From Gluconacetobacter johannae (GTDB taxonomy: Bacteria > Pseudomonadota > Alphaproteobacteria > Acetobacterales > Acetobacteraceae), in the NCBI RefSeq assembly GCF_014174305.1, contig NZ_JABEQH010000004.1, positions 1 to 64,000 on the forward strand: a stretch of 64,000 nucleotides of DNA, given 5' to 3'. A model generated the notes under the pieces. That model searched no databases and was not told the origin of the DNA. It saw only the letters and a program-made list of their open reading frames with translations. Both the position numbers and the translations under genes were made by a program. Shown here in pieces: positions 57,675-64,000 of the stretch. The stretch's first letter is position 1, and every line of letters starts with the position of its first letter.

Positions 57675-59087
57675 ATGGCGACAGTGACGTTTTGCCTCGT
57701 GATCCTGTTGTCGCTGGCGATCGCGCTGTATTCCCGGCGGGGACATCATCACCAGGGGTCGCGGGATTTCTTCGTTGCCTCCGGGCAGTTCGGTGGGGTG
57801 CTGCTGTTCTTCCTGGCGGTGGGCGAGACCTACAGCATCGGCAGCGTCCTGGGATTTCCGGCCGGGACGTTCAGTCACGGCACCGCGTTCGTCATCTGGT
57901 TCCTCAGCTATATCGTCCTGGCCTATCCCGTCGGCTATTTCCTCAACCCCTGGATCTGGCAGGCCGGGCGGGACCATAACGCCATCACCATGGCCGATCT
58001 GTTCCGGCACCATTTCGGCAGCCGCGCGGTCGAGGTCGCGATGGCGCTGAACGCCATCCTGTTCCTGATCCCGTTCGGCGACCTGCAATTCACCGGCCTC
58101 CTGGCCGTGCTGCAGGGGTTCGGCTGGCCGGTTCCGACAGTCGTCATCACGACGGTGGCGGCGGTGACGGCCTTCTTCTGGGTGGCGCTGTCGGGGATCC
58201 GGGCGCCGGCCTATGTGTCGATCCTGAAGGACGTCATGATGATCGTCGCCGTCGTGGCGGCCGGTGTCGCGGCGCTGCTGGCCTCGGGCCATCTGCCCGA
58301 TGTCCGGCAGGCTGGGCAGGATATCGCGCAAATCCGCCCGACCGGACGCGAGGAGGCGTTCGCCATGTCCACGGTGGTGCTGCAGGCCATCGGTTTCTGC
58401 GTCGCGCCCCAGACGATCGCCTTCCTGTTTACCGGCCGGTCGCGACGGATCGTCCGGCGCAACCAGATCCTGATGCCGCTTTACATGCTGATGTTCCCGT
58501 TCCTGTACTGGGTCGCGGATTATGCGCGGCGGTCGGGGATGCCGCTGCATGCGCCCAACGATGCTTTCATGGCAGTATCCCTGGCCCTGTTGCCGGGGTG
58601 GATGGACGGGTTGGTGGCGGCGGCCTGCGCGCTGTCGGCGTTGGTCGTGCTGGCGGGGATCTGCCTGGCCATCGGCCCATTGGTGTCGCACAATCTGCTG
58701 CATGGCCTGTCGGATCGCCAGCAGCGTTACGGGGCGCAGATCGTGATTGCGGTCTATCTGCTGTTCTCGATCGTCAGCGCGGCGCATGCGTCGGGCGTGA
58801 TGATTAAGTTCAACACCATGTACTATTTCGGCGTCACGCAGGTGGCGCCCGGCATATTCGCCATCCTGGCGGCGCGGGCCGTCAGCCCCGCGGCCGTGGT
58901 CGCTGGGCTGGTGGCGGGCGATCTGCTGTCGGTCGGGCTGTATCTGGGCGACATCGACCTGGGCGGGATCAATCCGGGCCTGGTCGGCCTGGTGACGAAC
59001 GCCGCCATCCTGTGGGGCGGCAGCCGCCTGCTGCCCAGCCGGGCGCTGGTGCCGATCCTGCGGCGGGACGAGATGCCGCGTCAGTGA
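57675..59087 (+). CDS. Sodium:solute symporter (SSS family)
   Basis: Inner-membrane sodium-coupled symporter of 470 residues with about 13 membrane segments. Family features: RDFFVASGQFGGVLLFFLAVGETYSIGSVLGFPAGTF near the first two helices, the YPVGYFLNPWIWQAGR loop, and ALSALVVLAGICLAIGPLVSHNLLHG further on. It follows the ureohydrolase and DUF3311 genes and most likely brings in the guanidino substrate. Its stop lies within 7 bases of the convergent stop of the SGNH-like gene; the two coding regions overlap tail to tail. Confidence 0.9.
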   Translation: MATVTFCLVILLSLAIALYSRRGHHHQGSRDFFVASGQFGGVLLFFLAVGETYSIGSVLGFPAGTFSHGTAFVIWFLSYIVLAYPVGYFLNPWIWQAGRDHNAITMADLFRHHFGSRAVEVAMALNAILFLIPFGDLQFTGLLAVLQGFGWPVPTVVITTVAAVTAFFWVALSGIRAPAYVSILKDVMMIVAVVAAGVAALLASGHLPDVRQAGQDIAQIRPTGREEAFAMSTVVLQAIGFCVAPQTIAFLFTGRSRRIVRRNQILMPLYMLMFPFLYWVADYARRSGMPLHAPNDAFMAVSLALLPGWMDGLVAAACALSALVVLAGICLAIGPLVSHNLLHGLSDRQQRYGAQIVIAVYLLFSIVSAAHASGVMIKFNTMYYFGVTQVAPGIFAILAARAVSPAAVVAGLVAGDLLSVGLYLGDIDLGGINPGLVGLVTNAAILWGGSRLLPSRALVPILRRDEMPRQ

Positions 59088-60454
59088 TCGCGCCCGGCCA
59101 CCCTGACGTCCGGCGTGGCGTCGCGTATGTCGGCCATGGCCTGAAGGATCCGCTGGCGCAGGGCGACCTGCATCTGCCCGCTCTGGTGGATGCCGTCCGG
59201 CAGGTGCTGGCCGGCACCCAGTTCGGCGGCCAGGGCATCGACGTCGATGATGGTCAGTTCGCGCGTCTCGGCGATGTCGTGGAGCATCAGGTTCTGCTCC
59301 TTGGCCGCGATGTTCGACAGCGTGGCGCTCATGGGCGCGTCGAAGGCCATGTAGTTCGATATATCCTCGTAGCCGGATGTGGACATGCGGTTCAGGACGA
59401 GGATCCGGCCCCCCGTGGTGCGGGCGAGCGTGTCGATCAGCTTCTCGTAATCCTGGCGAATGACGTCGATGGATCGCTTGACCGGTTCGAAGGCGCTGCT
59501 CAGCCAGGCCTGGATGGCCGGCCCGGCGGCGGCCTGATGGTGACGCATGATATGCAGATGATACCCGAGCGTGCGATGGCGCAGGATGGATTGCGGCTCG
59601 GCACTGAGGGAGAGCAGGGCGGCATCCGGAGGTCCCAGGCGGCGGGTCCCGGTGGAGGAGATGATGTTGTAATTGTCTTTCAGGGGCGTGTTCCGCAGCA
59701 CCGACAAAAGGGCGCCGGCGAACATCCAGTCGTCGGCCGTCGGCGGAACGGCGGACGTGCCGAGAAAACGGCGCAGATCCTCGGCAAGCGCGTCGAACTG
59801 GGCCGGCGTCCGGGTGAGTTGGTCCAGCAGCACGGGCGCGCAGGGCGCCACCGGGTGATCGGGCACGAAGACGAACTGCATCGCGTCCGAGGCGGCTTCG
59901 AACATTTCCAGGAAAGCGCACTGCTCCCCCAGGATGACCCCCGTCGCGTCGCACAGGCCCAGGCTGAGGAGCGTGACGGGGGTTTCGCCTTCCTCGCACC
60001 ACCAGCCGCGACTGCGGCCGTTCCAGCCCGGCAGCAGGCCCGAATGCACGTCGGCCAGCGCGGTCATGCGCCGTCCCGCGACCACCATAAGGCGCAGCCG
60101 TCCCGGATCGCCCTCCTCGACCGGCTGGTCGGGTTCGATATGCCCCAGGACCGTGTCCGGCTTCCAGGCATCGACCCCGCGAATGCTCAGATAGCCGCCG
60201 CGGGCCATTTCCGGATGGATGGTCAGCCGGCCGCTGACGCGGGGGGCGAAGACCACCTGCAATTCCAGTTCATCGGCGACCGCGTGATGGCGGCCGACGC
60301 GGACGCTGGCCGGCTCCAGGCTGACATTGCAATAGGCGATGGGTTGACCGGCACGGCAGAACTGGCCGCTCTCGCGCAGCCAGCGCAATCCGGAGCGCAC
60401 GATGGCATAGCCATCCGACGCCAGCGGCCCGAACCGCAGGGGAATTCCGTTCAT
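59081..60454 (-). CDS. SGNH-hydrolase-like protein with unassigned N-terminal domain
   Basis: 457 residues from ATG 60454, with no signal peptide or membrane segment. Residues 1-115 are beta-rich and look like a barrel-sandwich (lipoyl-type) fold: AGQPIAYCNVSLEP, VFAPRVSGRLTIHPEMARGGYLSIRG, VLGHIEPDQPVEEGD. The C-terminal half ends in a segment typical of SGNH/GDSL hydrolases: RILVLNRMSTSGYED, then LTIIDVDALAAELG and LPDGIHQSG, giving the D-x-x-H pair. I did not find a clear first-block serine, so activity is uncertain. It overlaps the small lipoyl-like gene by 4 bases (ATGA). The family is unfamiliar to me. Confidence 0.7.
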   Translation of the reverse strand: MNGIPLRFGPLASDGYAIVRSGLRWLRESGQFCRAGQPIAYCNVSLEPASVRVGRHHAVADELELQVVFAPRVSGRLTIHPEMARGGYLSIRGVDAWKPDTVLGHIEPDQPVEEGDPGRLRLMVVAGRRMTALADVHSGLLPGWNGRSRGWWCEEGETPVTLLSLGLCDATGVILGEQCAFLEMFEAASDAMQFVFVPDHPVAPCAPVLLDQLTRTPAQFDALAEDLRRFLGTSAVPPTADDWMFAGALLSVLRNTPLKDNYNIISSTGTRRLGPPDAALLSLSAEPQSILRHRTLGYHLHIMRHHQAAAGPAIQAWLSSAFEPVKRSIDVIRQDYEKLIDTLARTTGGRILVLNRMSTSGYEDISNYMAFDAPMSATLSNIAAKEQNLMLHDIAETRELTIIDVDALAAELGAGQHLPDGIHQSGQMQVALRQRILQAMADIRDATPDVRVAGRDH

Positions 60455-60819
60455 GAATGGCTCCCCGTCCACATGCCGTCGTGATGGATGATGCCCGCGA
60501 TGGTGTAGCGCACCTGGCGCGTCGTCTCCTGGTCGATCGGTTCGGAAGGATCGGTGCTGAACAGCGCGATCCGGTCGCCAAGGGCGCAGTGCTGTCCGGG
60601 CTGGACGTCGATTTGCCGAAGATAGACCGCCTCGCGCAGCACCAGCCGGTAGAACGACACGGGCGGGCATTCCTGGGCGAATGCGCTGCTGAGATCGACG
60701 CTCAGATCCATCAGCTTGCTTCCCAGCCGAAGCGAATCGTCCCTGGCGCTATACAGACATTCTACGGTGGCGCCGGACATCTGCGGAACGATGACGGGAA
60801 GCTTGAATTCGTAAAGCAT
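60451..60819 (-). CDS. Small lipoyl-domain-like protein, 122 aa, unknown
   Basis: 122 residues from ATG 60819, soluble. The first half (LPVIVPQMSGATVECLYSARDDSLRLGSKLMDLSVD) follows the repeat of a biotinyl/lipoyl domain but without the modified lysine. The second half (FYRLVLREAVYLRQIDVQPGQHCALGDRIALFSTD) follows the same pattern again. So it may be a free-standing barrel-sandwich domain like the N-terminal part of the next protein. GGGA lies about 6 bases before the ATG; ATG 60831 is an alternative. It is coupled to the SGNH-like gene by an ATGA overlap and lies 142 bases after the transglutaminase-like gene. Function unknown. Confidence 0.6.
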   Translation of the reverse strand: MLYEFKLPVIVPQMSGATVECLYSARDDSLRLGSKLMDLSVDLSSAFAQECPPVSFYRLVLREAVYLRQIDVQPGQHCALGDRIALFSTDPSEPIDQETTRQVRYTIAGIIHHDGMWTGSHS

Positions 60820-60961
60820 TATCGGTCCCATTATATGAAAAAGACGAATGATGCAGGCGTATGAGCCGAACAGGATCGAACAGGACGATAGTTTGGACGA
60901 CGGCTCGTACAACGATCCTGATATCCGCGGGTTTTCCCCGGTATCTTAAAAAAGCCTTATT

Positions 60962-62158
60962 TTAGCTGATGGCGACATGGTCGCTGTAGATGGGGGCGCC
61001 GTCGGCGCCGATCAGGCTGATATCGACGCCATCGCCCCTGGAGGTCTGCAGGATGCGCCAGGTCGGCGGGATCGCCACGCCCACGGCCCCGGTGAAGAGC
61101 CGGGGCAGGCATTGGGTGACCATGCGGGCGTCCACCCGCCCGAAAAAATGGTCGCGCCACGCAGGGTCGCGGCCGCCTTTCGACAGGTCCCAACTCATGA
61201 AATCGAACGACGCCCATCCCTGGCCGTCGAGCCAGACCTCCGACCAGTAATGCAGCGTCGGCGAGCGCTGATAGAGAAAATGTCCGCTCACCAGCCGGGC
61301 CGGGATGCCCCGCGCCCGGCAGAGCGCGACAAAAAACGACGATCCGAGCTGGCAATCGCAGCATCTGGCTTCGAGAACCCAGTCGAGGGGGGCGTCGAGC
61401 CTGACCTGGTCATAATGCACGGGGCCGGAAAGGAACGCGTCGATCATGAAATCCCAGAAGGCACGTACCGCGACCTCCGGCGACGCCGATCCGCCCAGCC
61501 GCCGCGCAAGGGCGGCGACCGGCGCGGACAGCTTAATCAACCCTTCGTCCGGCTTCAGGTACAGATCGCCATCCGGCCGGTCGGCAGCGTCCAGGCCCGA
61601 TCGCGGGCGGAAGCAGATGTCGGCGCCGATGCTGATATCCTCCCCCGCCGAAGGGGGGACCTGCACGTCCAGACGTCCGTCACTCAGGACGCAGGTTGCG
61701 CCGTGATCGGGGACCTGGGCGCGGATATCCAGAAAATCGCAGCGATGACGCAGCGGCAGGCCCAGTCTCAGGCGCCTTGCCCGGCCAGGGGGGGCATTGC
61801 GGAAATTGTAGGTCCGCCGGAGGGTCACCGTGACCGGTCCATCCGCCTTCGCGGCCAGGTCGCCGACCAGTTGGCGGCTGGTCGTCACGTAATGAGTCTG
61901 CCAGAAATCATCGTCGCCGATGGTCCCGGCATATTTAAGGAAATGCACTACTTCGACGGGATCGAAGAATCGCCGTCCCGCCGGGTCGGGACGAACGCCG
62001 AGGCCACAGCCGATCCAGCGGTCCAGGGCCTGTCGCGCGGTGACCCGGGCATGATCGGTGTCGTCGCAGAATGCCCAGCCCAGCAGCAGAAGACTGTCCA
62101 GAATGCGGTCTTCATCGACGGCTCTGTATCGGTCGTCAAACTTCAGCATCGTCGTCAT
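60962..62158 (-). CDS. Transglutaminase-like cysteine protease-fold protein
   Basis: 398 residues from ATG 62158, soluble, no signal. The C-terminal domain has the complete transglutaminase-like triad: C269 in CCDCQLGSSFFVALCRARGIPARLVSGHF, H303 in LHYWSEVWLDGQGW, and D319 in ASFDFMSWD. The N-terminal 225 residues have beta-strand and helical parts of no known family. Such enzymes cut or join peptides. GGAG lies 7 bases before the start. It opens a set with the lipoyl-like and SGNH-like genes; a carrier gene lies 44 bases upstream. The function of the set is unknown. Confidence 0.85.
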   Translation of the reverse strand: MTTMLKFDDRYRAVDEDRILDSLLLLGWAFCDDTDHARVTARQALDRWIGCGLGVRPDPAGRRFFDPVEVVHFLKYAGTIGDDDFWQTHYVTTSRQLVGDLAAKADGPVTVTLRRTYNFRNAPPGRARRLRLGLPLRHRCDFLDIRAQVPDHGATCVLSDGRLDVQVPPSAGEDISIGADICFRPRSGLDAADRPDGDLYLKPDEGLIKLSAPVAALARRLGGSASPEVAVRAFWDFMIDAFLSGPVHYDQVRLDAPLDWVLEARCCDCQLGSSFFVALCRARGIPARLVSGHFLYQRSPTLHYWSEVWLDGQGWASFDFMSWDLSKGGRDPAWRDHFFGRVDARMVTQCLPRLFTGAVGVAIPPTWRILQTSRGDGVDISLIGADGAPIYSDHVAIS

Positions 62159-62202: not shown

Positions 62203-62583
62203 CTACGATGCGCGCGCCATCAGCACGACGCCGGAGACGATCACGGCTAACCCCACGACCCGCATCGGATGGATGTTCTCGCCGAGAAAGATGATTCCGG
62301 CGAGGACGGTCAGAACGATGCCGAACGCGACGCAGGGATAGGCCTGGGACACGTCGATACGCGCCAGCACCAGAAGCCATACGACGGCGCTCAGGCCAAA
62401 GGCCAGCAGGCCCAGGACGACCGGCACATTCAGCGCGATCACCGACACCGCGTCCCAGACGCCGGACCGGTTCGCGATCGCGGCCTGGACCGCCCGGTCC
62501 GACATTCCCGTCTTCAGCAGGATCTGGGCGGAGGAGGACAGCAGGACGCTGATAAGTACAAGACCGATTGTTCCGAATGTCAT
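62203..62583 (-). CDS. EmrE/SMR-like small membrane transporter (ArnE/F-like)
   Basis: Inner-membrane protein of 126 residues with four hydrophobic helices: TIGLVLISVLLSSSAQILLKTG, VIALNVPVVLGLLAFGLSAVVWLLVL, AYPCVAFGIVLTVLAGIIFLGE, and VVGLAVIVSGVVLMAR. The AQILLKTGM and ENIHPMRVVGLAVIVSGVVLM patterns are those of the SMR/DMT branch that includes the ArnE/ArnF lipid-sugar flippases. Its ATG overlaps the stop of the large membrane protein (ATGA), so the pair acts together, most likely moving and using a lipid-linked sugar. Confidence 0.8.
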   Translation of the reverse strand: MTFGTIGLVLISVLLSSSAQILLKTGMSDRAVQAAIANRSGVWDAVSVIALNVPVVLGLLAFGLSAVVWLLVLARIDVSQAYPCVAFGIVLTVLAGIIFLGENIHPMRVVGLAVIVSGVVLMARAS

Positions 62584-64000
62584 GGCGTGGATACCCCTGG
62601 CGCGGCGAAGACGCAAAGACGGTCAAATCGAGCCGCCTGTGCCTGTGAATCGGCCTGCGTGCAGCCATCGACCACATAGGCGATGCCGTGAGCCGCGGCA
62701 TAGGACAGGCGTTGAGGAAGAGTCTGCAATGTTCTGACCTCCGTTACCCTGCTCCGCCATGTCTGGTAATAGGCGGGCGCCCACATCACGGCGGCCCCGG
62801 CCTGGGCGAATACCCATGCCTGCCGGTGGGAAAAATAGGGGAATACGACGACGCCCGCGGACAGTTGTTCCTGATCCGCGCTGGCTCTGGGAAACATGCC
62901 CGAATCCCGCAGGGCCCCAGGGGGGACGAGAAATACAGCGTCGGGCTTCGTCTGGGTCCTGGCCCATGTACCCAGGGCCTGCCACTCATTTCGTCGGGCG
63001 ATATCGGCGCGGTCGGATGCCATGGCGTGATAGATCCGCGCCACGTTGAACAGCACGACAGGCAGCAGCAGGGCCGCTGGCGCGTAAACGCGCCATGAGC
63101 CGGTTATGACCGGCGATGTCCGCTGCCACAGCAATAGCGGAATAGCCAGCGGCAGCAGAGGTTTGAGCGAGCAGGACAGCAGGATAAGCGCGGGCGCCCA
63201 CACGAGACGGTCCATCTCGTTGCGGGAAAAGATCCATCTGGTTGACAGGGCCGCGATGGCGGTCGCCGCCATCAGATGCACCGTGCTTCCCGATCGCAGC
63301 AGGTGCAGGTTCAGCAGCATGCGCGCATGGGTCGCGAAGGGAAGGAAAACGCCGAAGATCCAGACTGCCGCCGCCCCGCATAATGCGGCTGTCAGATACG
63401 AACCGGGCGCACGCAGCATCTGCGCGGCGAGTACGCCGCAGCAGAAAACGCCCGTCAGCAGGCACACATCCCGAAAGGAGATGGTCCATATCAGGAAATG
63501 ATCCGGATAGAACGACGTCAGATAGGTGACGTAATCGAAATCTGCCGGCCTGGCATACGGATTGCTCAGGATGTTGTAGACGACGGGCGCGGCCAGCAGC
63601 CCGAAGAGCACAAGACCCACGCCTGCTTGCCGCAGAAGCGCCGGCCACGTCCATTCATGCCGTCGTCCCTGGGACCACAGGATGAAGGCGAGAGGAACCG
63701 CGGTCCAGACGGCGATGAAGGCGTTGATGAAGAACGTCACGCCGTTCATGGCAAAGGCGGCGGTGACGCGCCCCCGCGCCGCCCAGGCCAGGGCCAGAAG
63801 TGTCGTTCCGTTCGCCAGTTCGGATTGCGTGAAGTTGTTAATCAGCAGGCCTCCGCCCCCTGCATGGGAAAAGGCATGCAACGGTGAGGAGACGGCGAGA
63901 AGCGCCGTGAAGACCAGGCGTTCTTTCGGACTGTCGATTCCCAAAAGGCTTGCCCATGACAGGAAGCCGAGGAACAGAAGGGTTCGCGACAGGATCTGGA
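62580..64000 (-). CDS. Large polytopic membrane protein, GT-C-like (start lies beyond window)
   Basis: At least 473 residues are visible, and the frame stays open to base 64000, so the N-terminus is missing. Ten or more hydrophobic segments are followed by a soluble C-terminal part of about 130 residues (WQALGTWARTQTKPDAVFLVPPGALRDSGMF...). The WARTQTKPDAVFLVPP opening is like the periplasmic domain after the membrane part in GT-C family glycosyltransferase-like proteins. No catalytic aspartate loop is visible in this part, as it would be in the missing N-terminus. Its ATGA coupling to an EmrE/ArnE-like carrier supports a role with lipid-linked sugars. A specific function cannot be given. Confidence 0.6.
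   Translation of the reverse strand, partial: QILSRTLLFLGFLSWASLLGIDSPKERLVFTALLAVSSPLHAFSHAGGGGLLINNFTQSELANGTTLLALAWAARGRVTAAFAMNGVTFFINAFIAVWTAVPLAFILWSQGRRHEWTWPALLRQAGVGLVLFGLLAAPVVYNILSNPYARPADFDYVTYLTSFYPDHFLIWTISFRDVCLLTGVFCCGVLAAQMLRAPGSYLTAALCGAAAVWIFGVFLPFATHARMLLNLHLLRSGSTVHLMAATAIAALSTRWIFSRNEMDRLVWAPALILLSCSLKPLLPLAIPLLLWQRTSPVITGSWRVYAPAALLLPVVLFNVARIYHAMASDRADIARRNEWQALGTWARTQTKPDAVFLVPPGALRDSGMFPRASADQEQLSAGVVVFPYFSHRQAWVFAQAGAAVMWAPAYYQTWRSRVTEVRTLQTLPQRLSYAAAHGIAYVVDGCTQADSQAQAARFDRLCVFAAPGVSTP

Follow-up and report, generated by a model that had tools for sequence, protein, structure and literature searches.

A conserved gene set in Gluconacetobacter johannae and relatives that may join a 2-oxo-acid-dehydrogenase-like machine to acyl transfer

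What could a transglutaminase-like protein (TG), a lipoyl-like protein (LIPL) and an SGNH-like protein (SGNH1), encoded side by side on the minus strand of Gluconacetobacter johannae, be doing together? The stretch analyzed, called the window below, is the 64,000-nucleotide segment C4:1-64000 of a 3.63-Mb genome, with genes assigned from homology searches and lists of open reading frames. A preliminary description of the window had treated these three genes as a unit. All three lie where it had placed them, but the unit is larger: they are part of a core set of at least nine genes, six of which are situated beyond the window end. The other six encode a lipoyl protein (LIPOYL), the two subunits of a dehydrogenase-type E1 (E1 alpha and E1 beta), a family-2 glycosyltransferase (GT2a) and two further SGNH proteins (SGNH2 and SGNH3). 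Searching the genome itself with SGNH1 revealed a paralogous match about 10 kb further upstream, at C4:70534-71034. Judging from sequence comparison, we regard the set as a genuine and conserved system that appears to be undescribed, and a plausible mechanism can be put forward for it.

We compared the locus with ten others (L029, L031-L034, L049-L052 and L054, with a metagenome-assembled genome (MAG) counted once and L049 and L052 being close relatives). SGNH1, LIPL, TG, LIPOYL, E1 beta and E1 alpha are each present at 10/10, a contig end cutting TG at two loci and E1 alpha at two, so that the three window genes, whose company elsewhere had been proposed as a check, stand together at all ten of the other loci compared. 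SGNH2 and GT2a are found at eight loci, the remaining two being short contigs that end before them, and a true SGNH3 at six, the other four loci or contigs ending before it; a genome-wide search finds SGNH3 about 10 kb away in two of these genomes (G214 and G218), and on another contig in a third (G182). The LIPL-SGNH1 pair is convergent with LIPOYL-E1 beta-E1 alpha at 8/10 loci. At L031, at L034 and in the own genome all of these genes lie on one strand, with the HAD-UbiA gene, a membrane protein gene and an SMR-like gene in between. Because the arrangement varies and the companions stay the same, the company of this set has outlasted rearrangement.

The coupling of LIPL to SGNH1 by an ATGA overlap, pointed out in the preliminary description, is present, and eight of nine other junctions have a 4-base overlap (ATGA, GTGA or TTGA), counting L029 with the first of two in-frame ATGs as start; the junction in L054 is TGATG. 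HAD-UbiA occurs at 6/10 loci, and the membrane protein with the SMR-like protein at 5/10. In L050 and L054, two stretches of 18-19 kb, the whole core of nine genes is flanked by other genes on either side, and neither the SMR-like nor the membrane protein is encoded there. These two proteins were ruled out as core parts, given their presence at only half of the loci, and the earlier suggestion that a product is handed over to them found no support.

Other members of the Acetobacteraceae share the nine-gene set, as does one genome from another alphaproteobacterial family. SGNH1 relatives were recovered at four loci, in Gluconacetobacter azotocaptans, Gluconacetobacter tumulisoli, Nguyenibacter vanlangensis and one MAG, in addition to those from the family, order and class samples. 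Sampled by rank, SGNH1 is found in 3/100 genomes of the family, in 10/299 of the order (nine strongly, the tenth, G022, by a 42-residue match with E 2.3e-4), in 2/385 of the class, own genome included, and in 1/398 of the phylum, this one being the own genome. Within the genus it occurs in 7 of 14 genomes, so the set is patchy, having been lost or moved between lineages; in the family of G596 it was found in 2/10 genomes, in one through the SGNH domain only. In the order sample, the TG profile (E<=1e-30) and the SGNH3 profile (E<=1e-20) each matched 9/299 genomes, and the strong SGNH1, TG and SGNH3 profile matches fall in the identical nine, at thresholds of our own choosing, with the best few candidates scored per genome and with profiles built partly from these nine (genomes not used as input: three for TG, four for SGNH3 and four for SGNH1). 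TG alone matched 24 of the 100 genomes in the family sample at E<=1e-3; except in G060, G053 and the own genome, they are weak (best E 5e-8), mostly short and located over the transglutaminase core. No relative of SGNH1 was detected in viral contigs, and no match for SGNH1 or TG in plasmids; the idea of a plasmid or phage trait was dropped on these results for the proteins tried.

The E1 pair has Pfam matches to E1_dh (E 4.1e-58), Transket_pyr (3.3e-37) and Transketolase_C (2.8e-29). By these matches, E1 alpha and E1 beta are homologues of pyruvate dehydrogenase (PDH) E1 with the thiamine-diphosphate domains present. Glu68 and His136 of E1 beta and His237 of E1 alpha, which we take to be catalytic positions, are shared with the PDH and acetoin dehydrogenase E1 proteins of the same genome. 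One difference is found in E1 alpha (L003:7613-8545 and relatives), where the motif R-S-I-G (6/6) replaces the R-x-H-G of the genome's PDH and acetoin E1 alpha, which may indicate a different 2-oxo acid substrate. LIPOYL matches Pfam Biotin_lipoyl (E 1.2e-10), and its best NCBIfam model is acetoin dehydrogenase E2, at a score far below the cut-off. The modifiable-lysine motif E-T-H-K-A is present in 9/9 sequences; LIPOYL is a candidate lipoylated carrier.

LIPL had been described as two lipoyl-like halves without the modified lysine. Only the second part of this description stands. Residues 1-98 align once, along the LIPOYL domain (hhalign probability 97.2, E 3.9e-11; about 1e-6 by tblastn), so the two-domain reading was discarded: LIPL is, on profile evidence, one lipoyl domain and a homologue of LIPOYL. 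A lipoyl domain is itself quasi-two-fold. Pfam lipoyl models gave no match in any of the nine LIPL members. In the joint alignment, a loop about 11 residues longer occupies the place of the lysine hairpin, with no lysine there in 9/9, and Cys51-Pro52-Pro53 is the sole run of three invariant residues among the nine LIPL sequences, down to 34% identity. A structure prediction of LIPL from a 5-row alignment gave an unusable model (mean predicted local distance difference test score (pLDDT) 42.9).

SGNH1 of the window has no Pfam match, and four of the nine family members have one below the cut-off. Nevertheless, SGNH1 and SGNH3 are paralogues (hhalign 98.5, E 1.9e-15), and SGNH3 matches Lipase_GDSL_2 above the cut-off (35.4 bits against 32.9), which upholds the SGNH label of the preliminary description. 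Asp420-x-x-His423 is invariant in 9/9 SGNH1 sequences; in SGNH3 the His is kept in 6/6 and the Asp in 5/6. Against solved structures, the SGNH1 profile found no match and the SGNH3 profile five weak ones, the best being a GDSL lipase (E 0.0097). The third lipoyl domain suggested for the SGNH1 N-terminus finds no support in profile comparison (probabilities 2.9 and 1.7), a weak half-motif in one of nine members (Biotin_lipoyl_2, residues 25-41, E 0.0051) being the one hint of it. TG matches Pfam Transglut_core (E 2.6e-16, 60.3 bits, cut-off 23), and its Cys269, His303 and Asp319, already noted as a complete triad, are invariant in the seven aligned sequences. As previously reported for signal peptides, nothing points to export: no 19-residue hydrophobic window above 1.6 occurs in TG, LIPL or SGNH1.

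In the own genome the set is located in an exopolysaccharide locus. More glycosyltransferases and a Wzc-like protein are encoded further upstream, according to a scan of the contig. By eye, a gene for a sugar transferase and further exopolysaccharide genes can be recognized there too. The genome also has two CAT-fold E2 domains (PF00198), on contigs C13 and C2, and none on C4. Contig C8 carries a complete acetoin dehydrogenase (L064:6934-10087) with E1 alpha, E1 beta and an E2 made of lipoyl and alpha/beta-hydrolase parts, which scores 481.7 bits against the acetoin E2 model, whose cut-off is 307; in the same genome, a lipoyl domain therefore already has a partner of hydrolase fold.

Taking together the genes present, their recurrence as a set, their domain assignments and conserved residues, and the missing CAT domain on the contig, we tentatively read the nine genes, at a little short of even confidence, as an acyl-transfer system, probably cytoplasmic, in which a split 2-oxo-acid-dehydrogenase-like machine has had its E2 acyltransferase replaced. 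We infer every reaction, as well as which acyl group is carried and what accepts it. E1 alpha/beta, with thiamine diphosphate, would decarboxylate a 2-oxo acid and reductively acylate the stand-alone LIPOYL. The acyl-dihydrolipoyl thioester would then go to an SGNH-fold acyltransferase, SGNH1, instead of a CAT-fold E2, with LIPL, translationally coupled to SGNH1, serving as a docking or relay subunit whose invariant Cys51 may take over the acyl group. SGNH2, which is degenerate, and SGNH3 might assist or act on other positions, and the acceptor would be a sugar or glycan that the family-2 glycosyltransferase of the set produces. TG could be a second, cysteine-based acyltransferase or a trimming enzyme, perhaps an amide-forming one, and the dihydrolipoyl group would be re-oxidized by the housekeeping E3. 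The full version of this proposal, with a lipoyl thioester rather than acyl-coenzyme A (acyl-CoA) as donor, an E2 split into a free carrier, a lysine-less relay with an invariant cysteine taking over from lipoyl-lysine and acyltransferases of SGNH or transglutaminase fold, and a 2-oxo acid feeding the decoration of a glycan or glycoside, seems to us rather doubtful as a whole. The earlier expectation of conserved neighbors with parts fit for an acylated compound agrees with this reading; its other half, peptide processing, finds nothing beyond the transglutaminase fold.

Several observations weigh against the acyl-transfer reading. By eye, the usual first-block position of SGNH3 lacks a serine, and SGNH2 has a degenerate look, its Asp-x-x-His not being evident, which makes classical SGNH catalysis doubtful. 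The catalytic serine of SGNH1 was not placed, and its structure model (5 rows, mean pLDDT 40.7) was unusable. Any of the three SGNH proteins or TG could be the acyltransferase, and E1 alone could serve carbon-branching instead. Furthermore, no polysaccharide locus is evident by eye around the set in L050 and L054. In these two loci and in L051, a second family-2 glycosyltransferase adjoins TG (L050:13274-14131, L051:905-1675 and L054:16759-17544; 41-54% identical among the three), for which the own-genome stretches searched gave no match at E 1e-4. As L050 and L054 lie outside a polysaccharide locus and have this second glycosyltransferase next to TG, a small glycoside is a further possible acceptor.

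Carbon-branching deserves attention as an alternative in its own right. The E1 pair might place a pyruvate-derived acetyl unit on a sugar carbon, as proposed for AviB1/AviB2 and Pau11/Pau12, with the other proteins acting before or after. Such clusters are a known setting for PDH-like E1 pairs beside glycosyltransferases and without a CAT E2 (PMC4425429, PMC4753412). However, the set has a dedicated lipoyl protein whose lysine is invariant (9/9 sequences) and which adjoins E1 beta at 10/10 other loci, LIPL too belongs to the lipoyl family, and in the available part of PMC4425429 the string 'lipo' is limited to two reference titles; we therefore consider sugar branching improbable.

A second alternative centers on TG, which would use the lipoyl thioester to acylate an amine, or would trim or join a peptide, while the SGNH proteins would remove or transfer esters. 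Transglutaminase-fold enzymes can form amides from thioesters (AdmF, for which the literature search returned no paper of that name), and both the invariant, complete Cys-His-Asp triad and the occurrence of TG in the nine genomes that also carry the other genes are consistent with a central role. We nevertheless find this quite unlikely, since we identified neither a peptide precursor nor an amino-sugar gene nor an adenylating enzyme in the set, TG shows the lowest conservation across lineages among the three window proteins (39-43% in distant members), and its profile has three weak matches among solved structures, the nearest with E 0.012. Finally, it is very improbable that the set is a variant of an ordinary catabolic dehydrogenase for 2-oxo acids or acetoin that just lies beside polysaccharide genes, even if its E1 and lipoyl proteins resemble those of PDH and acetoin dehydrogenase, because CAT E2 is absent from contig C4, the E1 subunits share 55-97% identity among the clusters (relative to the own proteins) but 32-39% with the genome's PDH and acetoin E1, and the glycosyltransferase, TG and SGNH proteins are always present, even where no polysaccharide locus is evident.

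The coordinates of the core and accessory genes are collected in Table 1. Among the accessory genes, HAD-UbiA, the 571-residue membrane protein and the ArnE/ArnF-like SMR protein together resemble a module of lipid-linked sugar donor, flippase and membrane transferase. The plus-strand gene at 57675-59087, by eye a multi-pass transporter of the sodium-symporter type, is convergent with SGNH1 and overlaps its end by 7 bases. At L032 (Nguyenibacter vanlangensis), an opposite-strand gene between TG and LIPL (L032:657-1874) looks by eye like a membrane acyltransferase of the AT3/OpgC type. GT2a of G147 (L052:4361-5372) matches in two pieces and that of its close relative L049 as a whole, possibly reflecting a frame change in G147.

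Table 1. Positions and assignments of the core and accessory genes; plain coordinates refer to the window, and those with the prefix C4 to the whole contig.
Feature	Coordinates	Strand	Description
SGNH1	59081..60454	minus	457 residues; C-terminal SGNH-like domain, invariant Asp420-x-x-His423
LIPL	60451..60819	minus	122 residues; single lipoyl domain without lysine, Cys51-Pro52-Pro53 loop
TG	60962..62158	minus	398 residues, transglutaminase-like; triad Cys269-His303-Asp319
SMR-like membrane protein	62203..62583	minus	nearest NCBIfam model ArnF, score below cut-off; accessory
Membrane protein, 571 residues	C4:62580-64295 (window part 62580..64000)	minus	accessory
HAD-UbiA	C4:64490-65929	minus	near decaprenyl-phosphate phosphoribosyltransferase models
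LIPOYL	C4:66296-66601	minus	101-residue lipoyl protein with lysine; core
E1 beta	C4:66630-67619	minus	2-oxo-acid dehydrogenase E1 beta; core
E1 alpha	C4:67609-68544	minus	2-oxo-acid dehydrogenase E1 alpha; core
SGNH2	C4:68541-69401	minus	SGNH-like paralogue, degenerate look; core
GT2a	C4:69398-70456	minus	family-2 glycosyltransferase; core
SGNH3	C4:70453-71250	minus	Lipase_GDSL_2 match; core

If the acyl-transfer reading is true, acyl groups on bacterial sugars can derive from a dedicated dehydrogenase-like complex by way of lipoyl thioesters and not from acyl-CoA. It would also add a further E2 chemistry, of SGNH or transglutaminase fold, to the CAT and alpha/beta-hydrolase types, and would explain what a lipoyl domain lacking the lysine and bearing a conserved cysteine is for. 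The set is compact and found in Gluconacetobacter, which makes it amenable to testing.

We found no description of this gene combination in the one open-licence library searched, and one may be in print elsewhere. Several known systems share some of its parts; the following comparisons draw on the portions of the cited accounts available to us. For azinomycin, a transketolase is described (PMC9570651). WcbI is a CoA-binding putative capsule acyltransferase, described as a novel fold and thought to need a partner (PMC4104973). Compared by description only, it resembles our set as a putative acyltransferase of a polysaccharide locus with a presumed partner, whereas its binding of CoA and the fold ascribed to it differ from what we propose here. 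AviB1/AviB2 of avilamycin and Pau11/Pau12 of paulomycin are PDH-like E1 pairs proposed for a two-carbon sugar branch, whose loading step is called unknown (PMC4425429, PMC4753412). They resemble our set in having such a pair inside a sugar-making cluster, but the portions available mention no lipoyl carrier, LIPL, SGNH or TG. In QncN/QncL/QncM and SclQ1-4, E1-like proteins with lipoyl and acyltransferase domains deliver a C2 glycolyl unit to an acyl carrier protein (ACP) (PMC6335953). This is a biosynthetic use of E1-like, lipoyl and acyltransferase parts, as we suggest here; unlike in our set, the acyltransferase domain is built into the lipoyl protein and an ACP takes the unit, whereas no ACP was recognized among our genes. 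The acetoin dehydrogenase AcoA-AcoB-AcoC similarly combines E1 alpha, E1 beta and a lipoyl domain with a hydrolase-fold protein instead of CAT. In the set described here, however, the lipoyl and hydrolase-fold parts are separate genes, the fold is SGNH-like, and LIPL, TG, a glycosyltransferase and two more SGNH paralogues are added.

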